Shown in pieces: positions 17,299 to 59,139 of a stretch of DNA of 64,000 nt. Each line of letters opens with the position of its first letter. Position 1 is the stretch's first letter. The notes under the pieces were generated by a model. That model was given only the letters and a program-made list of their open reading frames with translations. It had not been told where the DNA came from and ran no database searches. Source of the DNA: Nitrosotalea devaniterrae (GTDB taxonomy: Archaea; Thermoproteota; Nitrososphaeria; Nitrososphaerales; Nitrosopumilaceae); NCBI GenBank assembly GCA_900065925.1, contig LN890280.1:302451-366450 (forward strand), in the 5' to 3' direction. The translations under genes and the position numbers were made by a program.

Positions 17299-18795
17299 AT
17301 GTTTGAAAAACTACGAAATGCATTTTCTATAGCGGCTAAAAGTTTTGGAGAAAAAGAATTAAAAGAAAAAGACGTAGAGGAAGTTTTGTTTGAGCTTGAG
17401 ATTGCACTGCTAGAATCTGATGTTGCAACCGAAGTCATTGATTCGCTAAAAGATGACCTAAAAAAACAACTGGTTGGTTCTACTGTAAATAAAGACAAGA
17501 TTGCAGAAGTTGTAAAACAAGAACTGCGAAAAAGCATCTCAAACATGTTTGATGGTGCAGGAAAAGTCGACATTCTATCTAATATTCAAAAAAAGAAGGA
17601 AAAGGGAGAACCATACATAATATCATTTATGGGCATTAATGGAACTGGCAAGACTACTACAATAGCAAAAGTTGCAAATTTTTTGAAGGAAAATAAATAT
17701 TCTGTTGTAATTGCAGCAGCTGATACCTATAGGGCAGGTGCAATAGAGCAGATAAGTGAACATGGAAAAAGGCTCAACGTCAAAGTGATTGCTCAAAACT
17801 ATGGTTCAGATCCTGCAGCAGTTTCTCGCGATGCAGTACTTTATGCAAAATCACACAAAATAGATTGCATCCTCATTGATACTGCCGGCAGAATGCAGAC
17901 AAGCAAAAACTTGATGGACCAAATATCTAAAATTAACAAAGTGGTAAATCCTGATCTCAAACTGTTTGTTGGAGATTCGTTGGCTGGAAACGACACTGTA
18001 AGTCAAGCTCGAGAGTTTCATAATTATACGAAATTTGATGGTGCCATACTTACAAAAAGCGATGCAGATGCACGTGGTGGAGCTGCAATATCAATTGTTA
18101 AAGTAACATCTAGTCCAATTCTTTACTTGGGTGTTGGCCAAGAATACAAGGACCTGAAATCTTTTGACAAAGATGTATTTTTGGAGTCTTTATTTGGTCC
18201 TGAACAAGTTGCTGAAGAGATAACAAAAAAAGTGGCAGAACCAAAACCAGAACCAAAAGTTGAACCAAAACCAGAACCAAAACCAGAACCAAAAGTTGAA
18301 CCAAAACCAGAACCAAAACCAGAACCAAAACCAGTTGAACCAAAAGTTGAACCAAAAGTTGAACCAAAAGTTGAACCAAAAGTTGAACCAAAAGTTGAAC
18401 CAAAAGTTGAACCAAAAGTTGAACCAAAAGTTGAACCAAAAGTTGAACCAAAAGTTGAACCAAAAGTTGAACCAAAAGTTGAACCAAAAGTTGAACCAAA
18501 ACCCGAAATTCATCAAGAAATATCTGATGAAGATCCATTTGCCGGGATTTCTACAAAAGATATCGAAAAATATTCTGACATTTTTGATGTACCGCCTCCA
18601 GAAAATGACAATCAAGCAAGGAAACTAGCTTCAGATATTAGAAAATGGATATCTGAAGGACGACCAAAAACTAAGAAAGATGATCCTAAACCAGAACCTA
18701 AAGTTGAATTAAAAACTGAAGAAAAAGAAATTGAAGAAACAAAAGATGAAAAGACTATAAAGAAACGTTCACTGTTTGGATGGAGGAAGAAATGA
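17299..18795 (+). CDS. ftsY: Signal recognition particle receptor FtsY with long repetitive C-terminal tail
   Basis: 498 residues. The NG GTPase that docks SRP-ribosome complexes at the membrane. N domain about 1-95. G domain with P-loop GINGTGKTT (112-120), DTAGRMQ (194-200) and TKSDADARGG (252-261). The NG core ends near residue 303. The remaining ~195 residues are unusual: a Pro/Lys/Glu/Val tract with 14 exact VEPK units, then a short segment (DEDPFAGISTKDIEKY... ARKLASDIRKWISEG) and a basic end ([11 protein letters not shown]). Bacterial FtsY extensions are N-terminal and acidic, so a C-terminal linker ending in a basic, perhaps membrane-contacting, peptide is notable. The last 4 nt overlap argF. 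Confidence 0.94.
   Translation: MFEKLRNAFSIAAKSFGEKELKEKDVEEVLFELEIALLESDVATEVIDSLKDDLKKQLVGSTVNKDKIAEVVKQELRKSISNMFDGAGKVDILSNIQKKKEKGEPYIISFMGINGTGKTTTIAKVANFLKENKYSVVIAAADTYRAGAIEQISEHGKRLNVKVIAQNYGSDPAAVSRDAVLYAKSHKIDCILIDTAGRMQTSKNLMDQISKINKVVNPDLKLFVGDSLAGNDTVSQAREFHNYTKFDGAILTKSDADARGGAAISIVKVTSSPILYLGVGQEYKDLKSFDKDVFLESLFGPEQVAEEITKKVAEPKPEPKVEPKPEPKPEPKVEPKPEPKPEPKPVEPKVEPKVEPKVEPKVEPKVEPKVEPKVEPKVEPKVEPKVEPKVEPKVEPKVEPKPEIHQEISDEDPFAGISTKDIEKYSDIFDVPPPENDNQARKLASDIRKWISEGRPKTKKDDPKPEPKVELKTEEKEIEETKDEKTIKKRSLFGWRKK
18334..18501 (+). repeat. 12-bp tandem repeat, 14 exact copies, inside ftsY
   Basis: Fourteen consecutive identical units of GTTGAACCAAAA, each encoding VEPK. They are preceded at about 18238-18333 by less regular EPKP/EPKV units built from the same words. 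The unit length is a multiple of three, so copy-number change would alter tail length without breaking the frame. Confidence 0.97.
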
Positions 18796-28065: not shown

Positions 28066-28446
28066 TTATCTAGTTTTAGACCATTTCTTCATCCACTGTA
28101 AAAGATCTATCATGGATTCTACAAGTTCCTGTCCTTTGTTGGTTAGCTTGTATTCCACCCGTGGAGGAATTTCATTATAAGACAACCTATCCAAGACTCC
28201 GCTTTTTTCCAGTTCTTTTAATCTGATTGCCAAAGTTCTACTACTGATTCCTCTCAAAGCTTGTCTGAACTGCTTGTATCTCACAGGTTCCGTAGTGCAG
28301 CACAATGGAATTAAAATCTCAAGTGTGCCTCTTTTGGTGATTATCTTTCTAAGTTTGGCAGTCTCAGACATTAAGGAAGACGCATCATATCCCTCAAAAT
28401 TGCAGCTCTCTTTTGCCATTGGAAGCGACTTTCTTTTAGTTTCCAT
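28066..28446 (-). CDS. HxlR-family winged-helix regulator, probable arsenic/redox sensor
   Basis: 126 residues. A winged helix of the HxlR type spans about 35-118 (RYKQFRQALRGISSRTLAIRLKELEKSGVLDRLSYNEIPPRVEYKLTNKGQEL). Cys15 near the N-terminus and Cys49-Cys50 before the recognition helix are candidate ligands for As(III) or thiol stress. Divergent from arsM with a 16-bp near-palindrome between. The reading frame runs back to 28608, but that would overlap arsM and bypass the operator, so ATG 28446 is taken. Control of the ars genes is inferred from position. Confidence 0.87.
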   Translation of the reverse strand: METKRKSLPMAKESCNFEGYDASSLMSETAKLRKIITKRGTLEILIPLCCTTEPVRYKQFRQALRGISSRTLAIRLKELEKSGVLDRLSYNEIPPRVEYKLTNKGQELVESMIDLLQWMKKWSKTR

Positions 28447-28480
28447 TTTTACACCAACTGCAATTGCTTGCCCTTGACAA

Positions 28481-28488
28481 CTTAAATG
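28481..28488 (+). promoter_or_regulatory. TATA box of arsM
   Basis: cttaaatg lies 23-30 nt before ATG 28511, immediately upstream of the inverted repeat, giving a leaderless transcript. Confidence 0.45.
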
Positions 28489-28504
28489 GTTTACTTTGTA
28501 AACT
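28489..28504. promoter_or_regulatory. Inverted repeat at the arsM promoter, candidate HxlR operator
   Basis: GTTTACTTTGTAAACT: exact 6-bp arms GTTTAC/GTAAAC around TTT. It sits between the TATA-like box and the arsM ATG, a classic archaeal repressor position. The same 16-mer recurs at 56080-56095. Confidence 0.65.
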
Positions 28505-28510
28505 TGTAAC

Positions 28511-29269
28511 ATGACAGATACAATAAAAGAAAAAGTAAAGGAAAGATATGCAAAGATTGCACTGACAGGTAATTCTGACTGTTGTTGTATGCCGGGAGAA
28601 TGCAGCACTGGTGATTCTCTGATTGATGCCAGTAAAATAATTGGATATGATCAAGAAGAATTAAAATCAATTCCAGGAGCAGCAATCTTGGGTGTGGGAT
28701 GTGGTGCACCAATAAAATTTGCCAATCTGAAAGATGGAGAAACGGTCGTGGATCTTGGTTCAGGTGCTGGAATAGACGCATTTCTATCTGCAAACAAAGT
28801 TTCAAAATCTGGCAAAGTAATTGGAATTGACATGACCGATGAGATGCTATACACAGCAAGAAAAAATGCAAAAGAGGGCAATTACACTAACGTAGAATTT
28901 CGAAAGGGAGACATTGAAAACAACATTCCCGTTGATAATGATACCGTCGATGCGGTTATCAGCAATTGTGTCATTAATCTTACTTCAAACAAGACAGATG
29001 CATTTAGAGAAGTTCATAGAATATTGAAGCAAGGTGGCAGGATGGTGATCTCGGATCTTGTAACTGACAGAGAAATTGAGCAAGGTCAAGTAAATGCAGA
29101 TCAATGGTGTAGTTGCATAGATGGTGCACTAACAAAGGAGAATTATATTCAAAGTATAAAAAAAGCTGGCTTTGAGAATGTGGATGTTTTGGAAGAGCGA
29201 ACATACATGGAAGGAGAGAAGGTAAATGGTAGAAAAATCTCAAGTCTTGTCATCAGAGCAATAAAGTGA
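28511..29269 (+). CDS. arsM: Arsenite S-adenosylmethionine methyltransferase
   Basis: 252 residues. Methylates As(III) using SAM. Rossmann SAM motif VVDLGSGAGIDAF (about 79-91). The three arsenite-binding cysteines of the family correspond to Cys64 (GVGCGAP), Cys153 (SNCVINL) and Cys202 (CSCIDGA). An extra N-terminal CCCMPGEC cluster (residues 24-31) is common in prokaryotic ArsM. First gene of arsM-arsC-aquaporin, divergent from the HxlR regulator. Confidence 0.93.
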   Translation: MTDTIKEKVKERYAKIALTGNSDCCCMPGECSTGDSLIDASKIIGYDQEELKSIPGAAILGVGCGAPIKFANLKDGETVVDLGSGAGIDAFLSANKVSKSGKVIGIDMTDEMLYTARKNAKEGNYTNVEFRKGDIENNIPVDNDTVDAVISNCVINLTSNKTDAFREVHRILKQGGRMVISDLVTDREIEQGQVNADQWCSCIDGALTKENYIQSIKKAGFENVDVLEERTYMEGEKVNGRKISSLVIRAIK

Positions 29270-29276
29270 TTATACC

Positions 29277-29705
29277 ATGAAATTTTTTGGAAAACACAAT
29301 GAAGGAAAAAAGATCCTCTTTGTATGTGTAGAGAATGCTGGAAGAAGTCAGATAGCAGAGGGATTCTTTAGAAAGTATGCTCCAAAGGGATGGACCACAA
29401 TCAGTGCAGGGTCAAGACCAACGCCAGAGATTAATCCTGTTGCAGTGGATGTAATGAAAGAAGTTGGGATAGATATCAGTAAACAAAAACCAAAGGAATT
29501 ATCTGAGGAACTGATTCGTTCTTCATTTATCAAGGTGAGCATGGGTTGTATGGAACAGACAGAATGCCCTGCTGTATTTCTTGGAAATCATCAGGATTGG
29601 GGCATTGAGGATCCAAAGGGAAAACCAATTGAGAAAGTACGTGAGATCCGAGATGAAATAGAAAAAAAGGTAAAGGAACTTGCCACAAATCTTGAACTTA
29701 GTTAG
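29277..29705 (+). CDS. arsC: Arsenate reductase, low-molecular-weight phosphatase fold
   Basis: 142 residues. Reduces arsenate to arsenite by a cysteine relay. The P-loop CVENAGRS (Cys17-X5-Arg23-Ser24) lies near the N-terminus. Cys91 and Cys97 (SMGCMEQTECP) correspond to the two relay cysteines of thioredoxin-coupled ArsC. The DP of the general-acid loop is in GIEDPKG. Produces the arsenite used by ArsM. A tyrosine phosphatase is less likely given the cysteine pair and the context. Overlaps the aquaporin gene. Confidence 0.92.
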   Translation: MKFFGKHNEGKKILFVCVENAGRSQIAEGFFRKYAPKGWTTISAGSRPTPEINPVAVDVMKEVGIDISKQKPKELSEELIRSSFIKVSMGCMEQTECPAVFLGNHQDWGIEDPKGKPIEKVREIRDEIEKKVKELATNLELS

Positions 29706-30366
29706 TAAATTAACTTCTAATCAGAAGATATTTTTTGCTGAAATTATTGGTACATTTGTTGTGGTGGTTTGTGCCACAGGATCAGTGGTATTGATTGCAA
29801 AATCCAATGGAACGATAGGATCTTGGTTTGAGGCATTTGCTCCATTTGTTGGAGTTTGTTTGATGGTGTATGCATTTGGAAAAGTCTCACGTGCTCATTT
29901 TAACCCCGCAGTTACAGTATCATATCTTATAACAAAACACATCACAAAAAAACAACTGCCAATCTATCTTGCAGCGGAAACAATTGGCGCATTTTTGGGA
30001 ATAATATTTGTCAAGAATGTTATCGGAACAGAAGCCCATCTGGGAGTAAATGCTCCTAACTACTCTTTTCCACTGTGGACGATTTTTGGAGTAGAGGTAT
30101 TGGCAACAGCCCTCTTGATGGCAGTAATTATGGGCGTTGTTCATACTAATGGATTGAGGGGTTTTAGTGGGATTGCAATTGGTGGAATAATAGGTATTGA
30201 TATTTTCTTTTTGGCGTTTATTTCTGGTGCATCAATGAATCCTATTCGTTCGCTTGCCCCTGCTGTATTTTCAGGCGTTTTTGATAATCTATGGTTGTAT
30301 TGGACTGCAACTTTTGTAGGCTCTATGCTAGTTGGTATTGTTTACAGAAAAAAATTTGTAAAATAA
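29692..30366 (+). CDS. MIP-family channel (aquaporin/aquaglyceroporin), ars-linked
   Basis: About 224 residues with six membrane helices and two half-helices. First NPA intact (HFNPAVT), second changed to NPI (SMNPIRS) with the following Arg kept. As(III) as As(OH)3 passes through aquaglyceroporins, and in some bacteria an aquaporin (AqpS) replaces ArsB/Acr3 pumps in ars operons. No pump gene is visible here, so this may be the exit route. Starts at TTG 29692 (or 29680), overlapping the arsC end. Confidence 0.88.
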   Translation: MNLVSKLTSNQKIFFAEIIGTFVVVVCATGSVVLIAKSNGTIGSWFEAFAPFVGVCLMVYAFGKVSRAHFNPAVTVSYLITKHITKKQLPIYLAAETIGAFLGIIFVKNVIGTEAHLGVNAPNYSFPLWTIFGVEVLATALLMAVIMGVVHTNGLRGFSGIAIGGIIGIDIFFLAFISGASMNPIRSLAPAVFSGVFDNLWLYWTATFVGSMLVGIVYRKKFVK

Positions 30367-52855: not shown

Positions 52856-53497
52856 ATGCCAAAAAATGAAGTCATAATAAGAAATGTTACCTTTGAAGAT
52901 ATTCCAGAAATAATTGAATTACAAAAAAAATCATTTCCCTATATGTATATTGAAGGAATGATCTGGAAGAAAGAGAGTCTTGAGAATCATGTACGCATTT
53001 TTCCGGAGGGTCAGTTCATTGCAGAATATGATGGTAAAATAATAGGATCTGCCAGCAGTTTGATAGTAAATCTGATTCCTGAGTACAAAGAGCATACTTG
53101 GATGGAGATCTGCGGCACAGCAGGATTTGGAAATCATGATCCCACAGGCGATACGCTTTATGCAGCAGATGTATCAACTCATCCTGATCATCGTGGTCTA
53201 GGTGTAGGAACCAAAATTTATGAAGCACGAAAGACATTGGCTATTAAACTAAACTTGCGAAGAATTATCGGAGGCGGCAGATTGTTCAATTATTGTGAAT
53301 ACGCAGATAAATTATCGGCAGATGAATATGTTAAAAATGTCTTGGAAGGAAAGATACGAGAACCAGTACTTTATTTCCAGATAAAAAACGCATTTAATTT
53401 TATAAAAATTCTACCTAATTATATCAAGGATTCACGTTCATTAAATTATGCAACTTTTATTGAATGGAAGAATCCCGAATATAGGAAAGTTTTATGA
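52856..53497 (+). CDS. GNAT-family N-acetyltransferase
   Basis: 213 residues. Acetyl-CoA fold with the pyrophosphate-binding motif VSTHPDHRGLGVGTKIYEARKTLA (about 100-123). It continues LRRIIGGGRLFNYCEYADKLSADEYVKNVLEGKIREPVLYFQ, as in the GNAT domains fused to nitrilases in bacteria, here without the nitrilase. Substrate unknown. An amine is likely. Overlaps the amidohydrolase gene by 4 nt. A KamA-type enzyme lies 2.8 kb downstream, but the MscS gene on the other strand intervenes. Confidence 0.88.
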   Translation: MPKNEVIIRNVTFEDIPEIIELQKKSFPYMYIEGMIWKKESLENHVRIFPEGQFIAEYDGKIIGSASSLIVNLIPEYKEHTWMEICGTAGFGNHDPTGDTLYAADVSTHPDHRGLGVGTKIYEARKTLAIKLNLRRIIGGGRLFNYCEYADKLSADEYVKNVLEGKIREPVLYFQIKNAFNFIKILPNYIKDSRSLNYATFIEWKNPEYRKVL

Positions 53498-54291
53498 TCA
53501 TAGATTGTCATACCCATCTTAACCGATATGAATCTCTAGAAAAAATAGTATTACTTGAAGATCGTGTAAAAGAATTACTTGTTACAATGGTGAGCAATAA
53601 TGTAGATTATGCACTTGTTCTTTCTTCATATCTGGTAAACGAAGGAAGACCATCTACAGAAGACTTGATTCAATCAGTAAAAGGACACGACAATTTAGGA
53701 ATCATTGCAGGATATAGCATAGATAATCACACTGATGAGGATCTGAAAAATTATAGAACATGGATCAAGGATGGATTAGTGAAAGGCTTGAAGATTTATT
53801 CTGGTTATGAACATTATTATCCGTACGATCAAAAATATCAAAAAGTTTACGACTTGTGTATGGAATTTGATGTGCCAGTTATGATACATACAGGAGATAC
53901 ATTTTCTGAAAAAGGCAAACTACGATATTCTCACCCACTAAATATTGACGAATTGGCAGTAGACAATCCCGAATTAAAAATAGTCATGTGTCACTTGGGA
54001 AACCCATGGATTGAAGATTGTCAAGAAATTGTATACAAAAATGACAATGTTTATGCAGATATGTCTGGTCTTGCAGTCGGTAGATTTGACCATTTTTTTG
54101 AAAAAATAATGGTCGAAAAAGTTGCAGAATTGATCAATTATGCAGGTGAGCCACGTTATCTTTTGTATGGCACTGACTGGCCAATATCGGATATGGATTC
54201 ATATCTTAATTTTGTTGCAAAGTTGAAATTAAAGCCAAAGTTTAGGGAGGAGTTAATGTACAAAAACGCTAAAAGACTTTTCAAAATCTAA
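53494..54291 (+). CDS. TIM-barrel amidohydrolase (Amidohydro_2/ACMSD-like)
   Basis: 265 residues. Metal ligands are visible: DCHTHLN (HxH) at the start, MIHTGD, VMCHLGNPW and the Asp of LLYGTDWPIS. The fold is that of the amidohydrolase-2 group (decarboxylases and hydrolases). It probably acts on a substrate related to the acetyltransferase upstream with which it overlaps by 4 nt. The reaction is not identifiable. Convergent with mscS, 4-nt overlap. Confidence 0.88.
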   Translation: MIIDCHTHLNRYESLEKIVLLEDRVKELLVTMVSNNVDYALVLSSYLVNEGRPSTEDLIQSVKGHDNLGIIAGYSIDNHTDEDLKNYRTWIKDGLVKGLKIYSGYEHYYPYDQKYQKVYDLCMEFDVPVMIHTGDTFSEKGKLRYSHPLNIDELAVDNPELKIVMCHLGNPWIEDCQEIVYKNDNVYADMSGLAVGRFDHFFEKIMVEKVAELINYAGEPRYLLYGTDWPISDMDSYLNFVAKLKLKPKFREELMYKNAKRLFKI

Positions 54292-56060
54292 TAATCATCA
54301 GATAGGGATATGTCCCCAACTCCAAATTGTGATTTGATTTTTTCCCGCTCTGCATCTACTTTGGAGATTTCTTCAGATTCTTTTTTTTCATCTCCTTGAT
54401 AAATAGTTCTTATCGGCCATGGTATTCGTATACCATGTTTCTTAAATTCTTCATATAATATCATACGCATATCTGTCTGTACTTTAAAATGTGATCCGAA
54501 ATCCTTTGCATACACCCATAAGGAAAAATCCAATGAGGATTCATTAAAGTCTTCAAATCTCACTACTGGTTGATCAATGTCTGCAAGAGTATTTTTATCG
54601 CATCCGCAACTTGGTTTATCTTTCTCCAGATATGGGCAACTTTTTTGAATAACTAGATGTCTTCCCTTTTCATCTTTAGACTTAATCATGGTCAATTTTC
54701 CAACTTTGATCAATATGGATGCCACTTGTTTCGGATCATTAAGATATGAAACTCCAACTTTAACTGTGGCCGGAACATATGAAAATTCTTTTGTGAAATT
54801 TAGAATCTGTTCACTCATCAATTGATTAGTAGGGATGATTGCTAATGATTCATTGAGTGCATGCCTTATGTATATGACTCCAGGGGTTATACTGTGTACA
54901 TATCCATTAAATCCAGTGTTTAATTGGATTCTGTCTCCTTCTTGTATTATCTTGTTCTTTCTAATTACTACATATGCAAAGTAGTTTTCCATAGTTTGCT
55001 TAAGTGCTAATCCTACTCCTACTCCAAGCCCACCTGTCGCAGTAGCAACAACCACAAGATCTACGCCCCACCATGCAATTACGCCTAAGATAGTCACAAT
55101 GAAAATTCCCGCTGGAAGGATTTGACTAACGGATCTAGGCATTGATTTTTGTTTTTGTTCAAAGTATCCAGGAGGTTTGCCCCCGGGAATAACATATTCA
55201 TAATCATTAAGCCGCTTGACTTCCATCCAGTCATCTATTGAATAAACCTCGTGGGGTCCAGATTTCAGACTCATTACACGCCCAGAAGCATTGTTTCCAT
55301 TCAAACAAAAATTCAGATATCGATCATATTTTTCTCGCTCGGTTTCTTTCCATTTCCCAAATGGATCTTTTATGATTGCTTGATAACTTCCAATGGTCAT
55401 TCCGCCTATTCGATAATTTTCTAAATGTCTGCGACCCTCTTCCGTATCAAGATATTTTTGAAATTCCTCTCTAGTAAATTCTATGGGAATTTCTGTAGGA
55501 GACATCCACTTGAAAAACTTGTGAAATAGATCTGGAGTATTTTTACAAATACCGTATCGTTTTCCACTACATACATCACAGTTACCGCATGGATCATCTA
55601 CAAAACCGCGTTTTATCTTCCAATTCTCAAAATCGTCTCTTTCTTTTTGATCCGAATCACGCTTTCGCAAAATAATGGGAACCAATTGAGATATTGTGTA
55701 TCCAATAATTAGAATATTAATAGAATTTAGGATCATGGCAAAAGTTTGTTTCACATCGTGCATTCCAGTAAATGGGACCTCTGATTCATCAAATAGATCG
55801 TAAATTTGAATGTAAAAATTTGTAGTGGATATTAAGGCCAAGGCAAAAAATGGTAATACTGCTTTTCGTATAAAACGTGAAAGATGAGGCCGGACATAAC
55901 TGAATTTTAGCCTACGAATCCAATTTGCAAATTTATAATAAATTGAAAAAATTGTTACTAGGCCAACTATCAAAATGAATAATTGAATCTGGAGATCACT
56001 ATTTGACAGTATTAAGGATGAAAGATTTTGAATTTGGCCAGATGAAATCGGGTCTACCAT
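54288..56060 (-). CDS. MscS-family mechanosensitive channel with two cysteine clusters
   Basis: 590 residues, twice the size of E. coli MscS. Membrane helices at about 25-42, 66-84, 108-132 and 314-345, with the pore helix TATGGLGVGVGLALKQTMENYFAYVVI (about 340-366) and the MscS beta domain IIQEGDRIQLNTGFNGYVHSITPGVIYIRH. A large cytosolic insert between the third helix and the pore (about 133-313) holds Cys158, 161, 164 and 172 (CGNCDVCSGKRYGIC). A second cluster lies in the C-terminal domain: Cys475, 485, 487. Metal, Fe-S or thiol sensing is inferred. Preceded by the same 16-bp near-palindrome as arsM. Confidence 0.9.
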   Translation of the reverse strand: MVDPISSGQIQNLSSLILSNSDLQIQLFILIVGLVTIFSIYYKFANWIRRLKFSYVRPHLSRFIRKAVLPFFALALISTTNFYIQIYDLFDESEVPFTGMHDVKQTFAMILNSINILIIGYTISQLVPIILRKRDSDQKERDDFENWKIKRGFVDDPCGNCDVCSGKRYGICKNTPDLFHKFFKWMSPTEIPIEFTREEFQKYLDTEEGRRHLENYRIGGMTIGSYQAIIKDPFGKWKETEREKYDRYLNFCLNGNNASGRVMSLKSGPHEVYSIDDWMEVKRLNDYEYVIPGGKPPGYFEQKQKSMPRSVSQILPAGIFIVTILGVIAWWGVDLVVVATATGGLGVGVGLALKQTMENYFAYVVIRKNKIIQEGDRIQLNTGFNGYVHSITPGVIYIRHALNESLAIIPTNQLMSEQILNFTKEFSYVPATVKVGVSYLNDPKQVASILIKVGKLTMIKSKDEKGRHLVIQKSCPYLEKDKPSCGCDKNTLADIDQPVVRFEDFNESSLDFSLWVYAKDFGSHFKVQTDMRMILYEEFKKHGIRIPWPIRTIYQGDEKKESEEISKVDAEREKIKSQFGVGDISLSDDY

Positions 56061-56079: not shown

Positions 56080-56095
56080 GTTTACTTTGTAAACT
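56080..56095. promoter_or_regulatory. Second copy of the 16-bp near-palindrome, upstream of the MscS gene
   Basis: GTTTACTTTGTAAACT, identical to 28489-28504, lies 20-35 nt before the MscS ATG (56060). It overlaps the expected TATA/BRE position of a leaderless transcript. Confidence 0.6.
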
Positions 56096-56272: not shown

Positions 56273-57673
56273 ATGGTTTTACAGCAATTTGATGATTCGT
56301 GGGGCAGATTTAATTCTCCATCATACAAATCATATACATTAACAAATTTTCGTGATATACCACAAATAAAAAAATTATCACGTGAAAAACAATTTGAAAT
56401 AGAGGTCGTAGGAAATGTTTTGCCTTTTAAGACTAATAATTATGTGGTAGAACAACTCATAGATTGGAAAACGGTTCCAAATGACCCCATATTCATCCTA
56501 AACTTTCCTCAAAGAAATATGCTAAAACCCAAACATTATCTTAAGATGGCAACTGCTTTGGAAAAAGGTTTAGAGAGAAAAAAGATCCAAAAAATTGCCA
56601 ATGAAATACGACTACAATTAAATCCGCACCCTGCAGGTCAGATGGAACACAATGTTCCGCAACTAAGAGATGGAACCAAATTGTATGGGATGCAACATAA
56701 ATACAAAGAAACGGTTCTTTTCTTCCCAAGCCAAGGACAAACATGCCATGCTTACTGCAGTTTCTGTTTTAGATGGCCTCAATTTGTGGGCATGGAGGAG
56801 CTCAAATTTGCAATGCGTGAGACCAATTCTTTAATCCAATATTTGAAAGAGCATCCTGAAGTCACAGACATTCTCTTCACAGGGGGAGACCCTATGATCA
56901 TGAAAGCAAGTCTGCTTTCACAATACATTGATTCTATACTTGATGCAAATCTACCAAACCTAGAAACTATTCGAATTGGTTCAAAAGCATTATCTTATTG
57001 GCCTTACAAATTCACATCAGATAACGATTCACAGGAAATGCTTGACTTGTTCAACAGGGTAACAAGAAGAGGAATACATCTTTCGTTTATGGCTCACTTT
57101 AATCATCCAGTAGAGCTTTCAACTGATGCTGTCAAGGCTGCAATCCATTCCATACGGGGAACTGGTGCACAGATTAGAACCCAGTCTCCCGTTCTAAATC
57201 ACATTAATGACGATCCTAATCTTTGGGCAGAGATGTGGAAAAAACAAGTATCTTTAGGATTGATTCCGTATTACATGTTTGTCGTAAGAGATACTGGGGC
57301 ACAACATTATTTTGGAGTACCACTGATACGAGCACAGGAAATATTTAGAGACGCATATCAGCAAGTAGGTGGGCTTTGCAGAACAGTCCGAGGTCCAAGC
57401 ATGTCTTCCACCCCAGGCAAGATCCAAGTTTTAGGAGTTACCAAAGTGGGCAAACTAAAAGCTATTGTCATGAGATTTCTACAGGGAAGGGATCCCAAAT
57501 GGGTTCAGAGACCATTTCTTGCAAAGTATGATAGAAAAGCAATTTGGATTGATGATCTAAAACCATTCTCAGATAAGAAATTCTTTTTCGAAGATGGATT
57601 GGAAAAAATATTGAATAAAGATACTAAAGTTTCTGGAAGTGATAACAGTACAGTCCATGGCGGACCTCCATAA
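56273..57673 (+). CDS. KamA-family radical SAM aminomutase-like protein
   Basis: 466 residues. The 4Fe-4S/SAM motif CHAYCSFC (Cys158, 162, 165) has the CX3CX2C spacing. TGGDPMIM (203-210) and the PLP-lysine region SSTPGKIQVLG (Lys383) are as in lysine 2,3-aminomutase relatives. The classic PLP motif is PGGGGK, here STPGK, so this is a divergent subfamily and substrate is not assured. A role in beta-amino-acid osmolyte synthesis is possible. Followed 20 nt later by glutamine synthetase. Confidence 0.87.
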   Translation: MVLQQFDDSWGRFNSPSYKSYTLTNFRDIPQIKKLSREKQFEIEVVGNVLPFKTNNYVVEQLIDWKTVPNDPIFILNFPQRNMLKPKHYLKMATALEKGLERKKIQKIANEIRLQLNPHPAGQMEHNVPQLRDGTKLYGMQHKYKETVLFFPSQGQTCHAYCSFCFRWPQFVGMEELKFAMRETNSLIQYLKEHPEVTDILFTGGDPMIMKASLLSQYIDSILDANLPNLETIRIGSKALSYWPYKFTSDNDSQEMLDLFNRVTRRGIHLSFMAHFNHPVELSTDAVKAAIHSIRGTGAQIRTQSPVLNHINDDPNLWAEMWKKQVSLGLIPYYMFVVRDTGAQHYFGVPLIRAQEIFRDAYQQVGGLCRTVRGPSMSSTPGKIQVLGVTKVGKLKAIVMRFLQGRDPKWVQRPFLAKYDRKAIWIDDLKPFSDKKFFFEDGLEKILNKDTKVSGSDNSTVHGGPP

Positions 57674-57693: not shown

Positions 57694-59139
57694 ATGACAG
57701 AGACTAACATAATTGAAAAAATCCAAGAACAGAATGTTGATTTTGTCAATTTTTGGTTTGTAGATATTTTTGGGGAACTTCACAGTGTAGGAATACCATC
57801 TTACTCACTTACTGAAGAGCATTTTAAAAATGGTCTTGAGAAACTAGATGCAAGTTCTATTCGTGGGTTCAAATCAGTCAATAAATCAGACATGATACTT
57901 CTTCCTGACTCAACTACTTTCAAAATATTACCACCTGATTATGATGACAATAAAAGAAAAAATGCTAGAATCTTTGTCGAACTTTGTGAAATTTCAGATT
58001 CTGTTCAGACACGATACAATCGAGATTCTAGAGGAATAGTCACAAAAGCCGTAGATGAATTAAAAAATTTTGGATTAACCAGAGCAGTTTGGGGACCTGA
58101 ACTTGAATTTTTTATATTTGATAAAATTAGTTTATTTCCATCACCAATTGGTGCTACTCAATCATATGGAGGTTCTGGATATTCAATAGAATCAAGTGAA
58201 GCACCGTGGACTAGAGGAAACGCAAGCAGCAGAATAGATCTAAAAGGTGGATATTATCCTGCACAACCAAAAGACACACTTGAAGGCATAAGAAAAGACA
58301 TCTGTGATGACATGTACAAATATTTTCAGATAAAAGTAGAGGCACAACATCACGAAGTTGCCACCTCTGGACAGTGTGAGATAAATCTACTACATGATGA
58401 TACTATTATTTCGGCTGACAATGTTGTTACTGTAAAAAATCTTGTAAAGGTAAAATCAAAGAAAAATGGAAAGGTTGCAACTTTTATGCCAAAACCAATC
58501 TATGGTGATAATGCATCAGCAATGCACATGCATCAAAGTGTTTGGAATAAAGAAAAAAATATGATGTACGATCCAAATGATAAAGTAGCTGAACTTAGTC
58601 AATTGGGCAGATACTATATCGGAGGTTTGCTTGATCATGCAGATGCACTATGTGCAATATCTAATCCTACTACTAATTCGTACAAAAGACTTGTACCAGA
58701 TTTTGAAGCACCGGTAAACGTATGCTGGGGAATAGGTAATCGATCATCTGCAGTTAGAATACCAATGTATTCAAGAGGAAGCGAAAAGAGTAAAAGAGTA
58801 GAATATCGGGTTCCAGACCCTACTGCAAACATATACCTTCTTGAAGCGGCATTGCTCTTGGCAGGTCTTGATGGAATAAAAAATAAAAAAGATCCAGGTG
58901 ATCCTGTTGAAGAAAATGTCTATAGACTCACACCAGAACAAAAAAGAAATTACAAAATAAGATCGCTCCCAAGTACTCTGAGAGATGCTTTGGAATCACT
59001 AAAAAGTGACCTAAAGTTTATGGAACAGACATTTACCAAGGATTTTCTTGATACCTACATATCTGTGAAATATGTAGAGCATAACGCTTTTGCACAAACT
59101 CCAACCCCGTGGGAAGTTTCAATGTACATTGATGTGTAA
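57694..59139 (+). CDS. glnA: Glutamine synthetase (type I family)
   Basis: 481 residues. Ligates ammonia to glutamate. Metal and ATP motifs: WGPELEFFIFD, EVATSGQCEINL, then AMHMHQSVWNKEKN, NPTTNSYKRLVPDFEAPVNVCWGIGNRSSAVRIP and RVEYRVPDPTANIYL. The bacterial adenylylation site NLYDLP is not visible near the C-terminus. Same strand and close to the KamA-type gene, so possibly one transcript. It could instead be a GlnA-like gamma-glutamylamine ligase, since catalytic-loop residues cannot be fully judged by eye. Confidence 0.9.
   Translation: MTETNIIEKIQEQNVDFVNFWFVDIFGELHSVGIPSYSLTEEHFKNGLEKLDASSIRGFKSVNKSDMILLPDSTTFKILPPDYDDNKRKNARIFVELCEISDSVQTRYNRDSRGIVTKAVDELKNFGLTRAVWGPELEFFIFDKISLFPSPIGATQSYGGSGYSIESSEAPWTRGNASSRIDLKGGYYPAQPKDTLEGIRKDICDDMYKYFQIKVEAQHHEVATSGQCEINLLHDDTIISADNVVTVKNLVKVKSKKNGKVATFMPKPIYGDNASAMHMHQSVWNKEKNMMYDPNDKVAELSQLGRYYIGGLLDHADALCAISNPTTNSYKRLVPDFEAPVNVCWGIGNRSSAVRIPMYSRGSEKSKRVEYRVPDPTANIYLLEAALLLAGLDGIKNKKDPGDPVEENVYRLTPEQKRNYKIRSLPSTLRDALESLKSDLKFMEQTFTKDFLDTYISVKYVEHNAFAQTPTPWEVSMYIDV

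Follow-up and report, generated by a model that had tools for sequence, protein, structure and literature searches.

The window, a 64,000-nucleotide stretch of contig LN890280.1 of Nitrosotalea devaniterrae, encodes a channel of the MscS superfamily whose core is ordinary and whose added cytoplasmic parts are unusual, with metal sites predicted on them. With moderate confidence, we read this protein as a tension-gated osmotic valve in which a family-wide metal site and a Zn(Cys)4 lobe confined to Nitrosotalea would both be mainly stabilising. The gene and the relevant parts of its product are:

54288..56060, minus strand: mscS-family channel gene, 590 aa, ATG start (ORF call, Pfam, AlphaFold2, Foldseek)
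55149..55634, minus strand: cytosolic domain, residues 143–304 (~150 residues), carrying the near-invariant C252 (AlphaFold2, profile search)
55539..55592, minus strand: insertion at about residues 157–174, with CX2CX2CX7C at 158/161/164/172, a predicted structural-zinc-like loop (4/143 homologues, MDR-lobe spacing)
54597..54659, minus strand: C-terminal site H468-X6-C475-X9-C485-G-C487-D488 in the vestibule alpha/beta domain, residues 468–488 (conserved 142/142)

Re-reading the minus-strand translation confirmed the reading frame and the seven cysteines, with their spacings, that had been listed in the initial annotation. The complete set of cysteines is 158, 161, 164, 172, 252, 475, 485, and 487, of which C252 was absent from that list. 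The assignment to MscS also held, both through Pfam domains above cut-off and through structural matches. The MS_channel beta domain (PF00924) scored 25.6 bits against a cut-off of 20.2, and the MscS C-terminal domain (PF21082) scored 29.6 bits against a cut-off of 21. The full-length AlphaFold2 model, with a mean pLDDT of 73.8, resembles MscS, MscK, YnaI, and MSL10; its Foldseek match to MscS has an E value of 9.4e-12, and in the structural comparison the MscS rows reach a Z of 12.7, with an rmsd of 6.5 over 253 residues. By domains and fold, the protein belongs to the MscS superfamily, and we infer that it is gated by membrane tension. Its best named relative is L001 (Candidatus Nitrosotalea), at 94% in the best segment. 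A second MscS of the same genome (L055) is without such cysteine clusters.

Helices in the AlphaFold2 model span residues 21–49, 58–86, and 103–149, followed by a stretch to approximately residue 298, a helix at 311–331, and the pore helix at 335–369. The charges of the loops are compatible with a cytosolic location for residues 150–310. Based on this helix layout and the loop charges, the region holding the first cluster corresponds to the TM1-TM2 loop of MscS. Both cysteine sites are thus on cytosolic parts, one on the TM1-TM2-loop domain and the other on the vestibule domain. The insert, previously placed between the third helix and the pore helix, is real, but it sits between helices 103–149 and 311–331 and not directly before the pore helix.

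The C-terminal cluster is an old site that is shared by the whole family. Our alignment comprises 143 homologues (51, with 92 more fetched) among the matches listed; eight fragments (G354, G313, G385:C63, two of G226, two of G233, and G127) were left out, and the duplicate loci L002–L004 were dropped. Residues H468, C475, C485, G486, C487, and D488 are invariant in all 142 rows that cover them, the one other row being without the C-terminal region. C252 is kept in 142/143 homologues; L023 has S252 in its place and retains the remaining ligands. In most family members C252, C475, C485, and C487 are the sole cysteines, and the next most common cysteine column (182) is occupied in 24/143 rows. 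The full-length model is weak at this site, with block means of 57, 46, and 66 for residues 471–500, and a search of the motif alone against PDB sequences gave a single chance match (E 2.5). The domain bearing the site is matched at an E of 1e-20 or better in 153 of the 250 Nitrosopumilaceae genomes searched, 4 of these 153 coming from the genus Nitrosotalea, which is represented by 37 genomes. Most genomes have one match to the channel family, and G292 and G746 have 4 and 3, respectively. Outside the family, 35 of 398 phylum genomes match the C-terminal-domain profile at E 0.001. Of these matches, 34 begin at model position 61 at least, past the site, and one spans only positions 15–51. The C-terminal site therefore marks the present channel family among the genomes searched. 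These whole-genome searches were made within the phylum, with 14 control genomes added for the two Pfam families searched. In the literature, we found no paper on metal sites in MscS proteins of these archaea.

The CX2CX2CX7C insertion has a different distribution, and all four homologues that contain it are from Nitrosotalea. The initial annotation proposed a check of whether all seven cysteines are conserved, and the homologue alignment rejected them as a single conserved unit: the C-terminal set is invariant, and the first four occur in only 4/143. As a departure from ordinary MscS proteins, the C-terminal cluster is stronger than was claimed, being family-wide, and the first cluster is narrower, being restricted to one genus. 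Among the four species the insertion is under purifying selection (dN 0.045–0.119 vs dS 0.299–1.128), and the codon for C158 changes synonymously. Across all window ORFs of at least 60 aa (37,203 residues), the motif is present in mscS and has one further occurrence, in a probably spurious ORF of 61 aa.

The spacing of the first cluster is identical to that of the structural-zinc ligands of medium-chain dehydrogenases (MDR), which are Cys97, 100, 103, and 111 according to the available text of PMC9895041. On an HMM of 21 ADH lobes from related genomes, the four insert variants scored 17.0, 15.0, 17.5, and 18.7 bits, and when the sequences were shuffled with the cysteines fixed, 36, 78, 19, and 18 of 3000 shuffles, respectively, scored as high. 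This suggests a modest resemblance to the zinc lobe beyond spacing. With phmmer, the insert matched an ADH lobe (for example that of threonine dehydrogenase, 3gfb) at an E of 0.64, a resemblance of the loop only. Zinc motifs of UvrA and RecQ also match parts of the insert, with scores at chance level. Pfam scans of the channel gave no match to ADH_N, so the lobe is not within an MDR dehydrogenase, and the insert alone found no Pfam family. Zn(Cys)4 is the likeliest occupant of the first cluster, but because the lobe score is modest and the UvrA and RecQ motifs also resemble parts of the insert, we infer zinc here rather than assign it. Metal binding by the cysteine sites is likely, and of the claims first made for the clusters, metal is well supported as a prediction, by 142/142 conservation at the C-terminal site and by the structural-zinc spacing of the first. 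The same cannot be said of metal or redox gating, which is considered below.

The TM1-TM2-loop domain that surrounds the insertion is itself a family-specific part. When residues 143–304 were folded alone, AlphaFold2 gave a pLDDT of 91 and a pTM of 0.82, and within this model the cysteine loop has no secondary structure, with block pLDDT values of 82–86. Neither Foldseek against the PDB (no usable match, best E 3.5) nor VIA-align (0/33 chains with a Z of 2 or more) matched the domain to a structure, which is not proof of a new fold. In Pfam, the whole domain gave RecQ_Zn_bind only, at an E of 0.08 that is below cut-off. Using a profile built from 28 of 62 non-redundant sequences, we found the domain in 44/398 genomes of the phylum, all of them in Nitrosopumilaceae and only in the present MscS family.

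This domain also carries C252, whose conservation (142/143) is close to that of the vestibule cysteines (142/142). Such conservation would fit an arrangement in which the two clusters and C252 meet in the heptamer, where an inter-domain metal clamp from the paddle-loop to the vestibule would set the gating threshold. We consider this unlikely, as L023 retains the other ligands while carrying S252, and H468 already completes four ligands at the C-terminal site.

The genes on the other side of the mscS start are:

56273..57673, plus strand: KamA-like radical SAM aminomutase homologue, divergent from mscS (conserved neighbour)
57694..59139, plus strand: glutamine synthetase type I, usually adjoining the KamA-like gene (TIGR00653 above cut-off)

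The KamA-like gene adjoins mscS in 33/33 loci (30 distinct) across Nitrosopumilaceae. In the longer regions it is divergent to mscS in 12/12, and glutamine synthetase lies beyond it in 8/12. Within the genus, all 4 mscS-bearing genomes are among the 9/37 with KamA (Fisher p 0.0019, kinship ignored), and in L247, L249, and L250, three Nitrosotalea that have KamA and lack mscS, no significant mscS remnant was found next to it. The conserved KamA-like and frequent glutamine synthetase neighbours point to an osmotic function. The gene order suggests synthesis of a beta-amino-acid solute beside its release valve, and the mscS/KamA-like pair, often with glutamine synthetase, is a candidate osmolyte gene cluster. 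The identity of the solute is a guess, since the KamA-like protein scores below its NCBIfam cut-offs. On the opposite side, a GNAT-amidohydrolase pair (52856–54291) is oriented convergently with mscS, both in the window and in L002, and lies 1.7–4 kb from mscS in L256 and L260. Elsewhere in the window, an FtsY-like protein (17299–18795) has a long repetitive PKVE-type stretch at approximately 18110–18620, accompanied in other frames by long mirror ORFs.

Upstream of mscS is a palindrome that it shares with arsenic genes:

56080..56094, no strand: operator-like palindrome GTTTAC-NNN-GTAAAC, located ~20 bp before the mscS start codon (identical to the hxlR/arsM operator)
28489..28503, no strand: second copy, between hxlR and arsM (related site at 21/22 hxlR orthologues)
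28066..28446, minus strand: HxlR-type regulator (PF01638, 75.1 bits)

The window has just two exact copies of the 15-bp sequence GTTTACTTTGTAAAC, at 28489–28503 and 56080–56094, and 0/100 shuffles contain any copy. A genome-wide scan located the pattern GTTTACNNNGTAAAC at three sites and its reversed control at one; the third copy (L054) is inside an ORF and was set aside as probably due to chance. A related site stands upstream of 21/22 hxlR orthologues in the genus, with the remaining locus, L074, ending at a contig edge. The regulator has three cysteines that are invariant in 22/22 genus orthologues, and it is possibly an As(III) sensor. It belongs to an hxlR-arsM-arsC-aquaporin set at 28066–30366, in which arsC-like and aquaporin-like genes follow arsM. 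The shared ars-type operator that was originally proposed is therefore real as an exact 15-bp copy, but the regulator is HxlR-type rather than ArsR, and the site is kept, exactly or nearly, in only 2/4 Nitrosotalea. When the upstream regions of mscS loci were compared by eye, the operator was exact in the window (1/4), carried one substitution in L005 (a near copy, 1/4), was degenerate in L001, and was missing from L006, whose genome nevertheless encodes the HxlR regulator. No close hxlR was found in the L001 genome (86% completeness). The exact operator was found at none of 47 other mscS loci, L007–L053, which include other genera. A TTGTTAAAGGTT-like motif, also seen by eye, recurs upstream of mscS in L008, L009, and L011–L014, from other genera. 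For the window organism, and perhaps for that of L005, it is plausible that mscS is co-regulated with the arsenic genes, but this is not a family-wide trait.

The operator copy raises the question of whether the cysteines sense redox state or As(III)/soft metals and so change gating, with mscS part of the lineage's arsenic response. The exact copy at the mscS promoter, the near-copy in L005, and the invariant cysteines of the regulator are consistent with such a role, and the ADH lobe offers a precedent, as that of A. pernix has been found both zinc-bound and as a disulfide in the available text of PMC9895041. We nevertheless regard a sensor as decidedly unlikely. The site has decayed in L001 and is missing from L006 despite the regulator there, its exact form is at 0/47 of the other loci, and the C-terminal cluster is invariant throughout a family whose mscS loci are without the operator. 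Gating by As(III) or redox state, as suggested in the initial annotation, is supported by no result here; the conserved neighbours are not arsenic genes, and the operator is poorly kept. More doubtful still is a scheme in which metal at the H/C/C/C site, with C252, sets gating, the Nitrosotalea zinc lobe adds sensitivity to soft metals or oxidants, and the channel is induced with the arsenic genes. An iron-sulphur cluster at the first cluster is very improbable, for while CX2CX2C is present in Fe-S proteins, ferredoxins have the spacing CX2CX2CX3C, the fourth cysteine here comes after X7, and both spacing and sequence score fit the zinc lobe.

We therefore return to the osmotic valve with stabilising metal sites as the preferred reading. 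The Nitrosopumilaceae channel would open by membrane tension and release solutes on hypo-osmotic shock. It is built from the MscS core, two extra N-terminal helices, and, within the TM1-TM2 loop, a cytosolic domain specific to the family. In all members, a metal that is probably zinc would bind H468, C475, C485, and C487, possibly helped by C252, and pin a vestibule-domain loop in place. In the four Nitrosotalea lineages, the TM1-TM2-loop domain gained an ~18-residue insertion, which would fold into a Zn(Cys)4 lobe resembling that of alcohol dehydrogenases. Both metal sites would mainly stabilise the cytosolic parts. The released solutes probably include products of the adjacent KamA-like and glutamine synthetase genes, and in the window organism the arsenic-gene regulator HxlR may additionally affect transcription of mscS. 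The fold, the conservation pattern, the restriction of the insertion to one genus, the gene order, and the identity of the operator come from the data, and zinc, a stabilising role, the solute, gating by tension, and regulation go beyond them.

Additional MscS families are described as gained in the ancestor of rod-shaped ammonia-oxidising archaea (AOA) (Abby et al. 2020, PMC7554672). The present channel is from the same lineages and the same superfamily, and its identity with one of those families is possible; the available text of that paper does not mention cysteine sites, which are a feature of the present channel. Like the structural-zinc lobe of medium-chain ADH (3gfb), the Nitrosotalea insertion has the CX2CX2CX7C spacing and a CGxC..C...RY..C.NT-like resemblance. 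Unlike in medium-chain ADH, the loop here belongs to a protein outside the MDR enzymes, and the likeness is limited to the loop. The best structural matches of the channel as a whole are MscS, YnaI, MscK, and MSL10, with which it shares the pore helix and the beta and alpha/beta domains. YnaI and MSL10 carry extra membrane helices, as does the present channel. It differs from all four in its TM1-TM2-loop domain, for which the PDB gave no fold match and Pfam only the sub-threshold RecQ family, and in the invariant H/C/C/C site of its vestibule domain. Present in 153 of the 250 searched genomes of a family of ammonia oxidisers, the invariant vestibule metal-type site and the paddle-loop domain without a PDB match would offer a case of a metal-tuned osmotic valve, tied to the candidate osmolyte gene pair of KamA-like protein and glutamine synthetase. 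MscS relatives differ chiefly by additions to the core.
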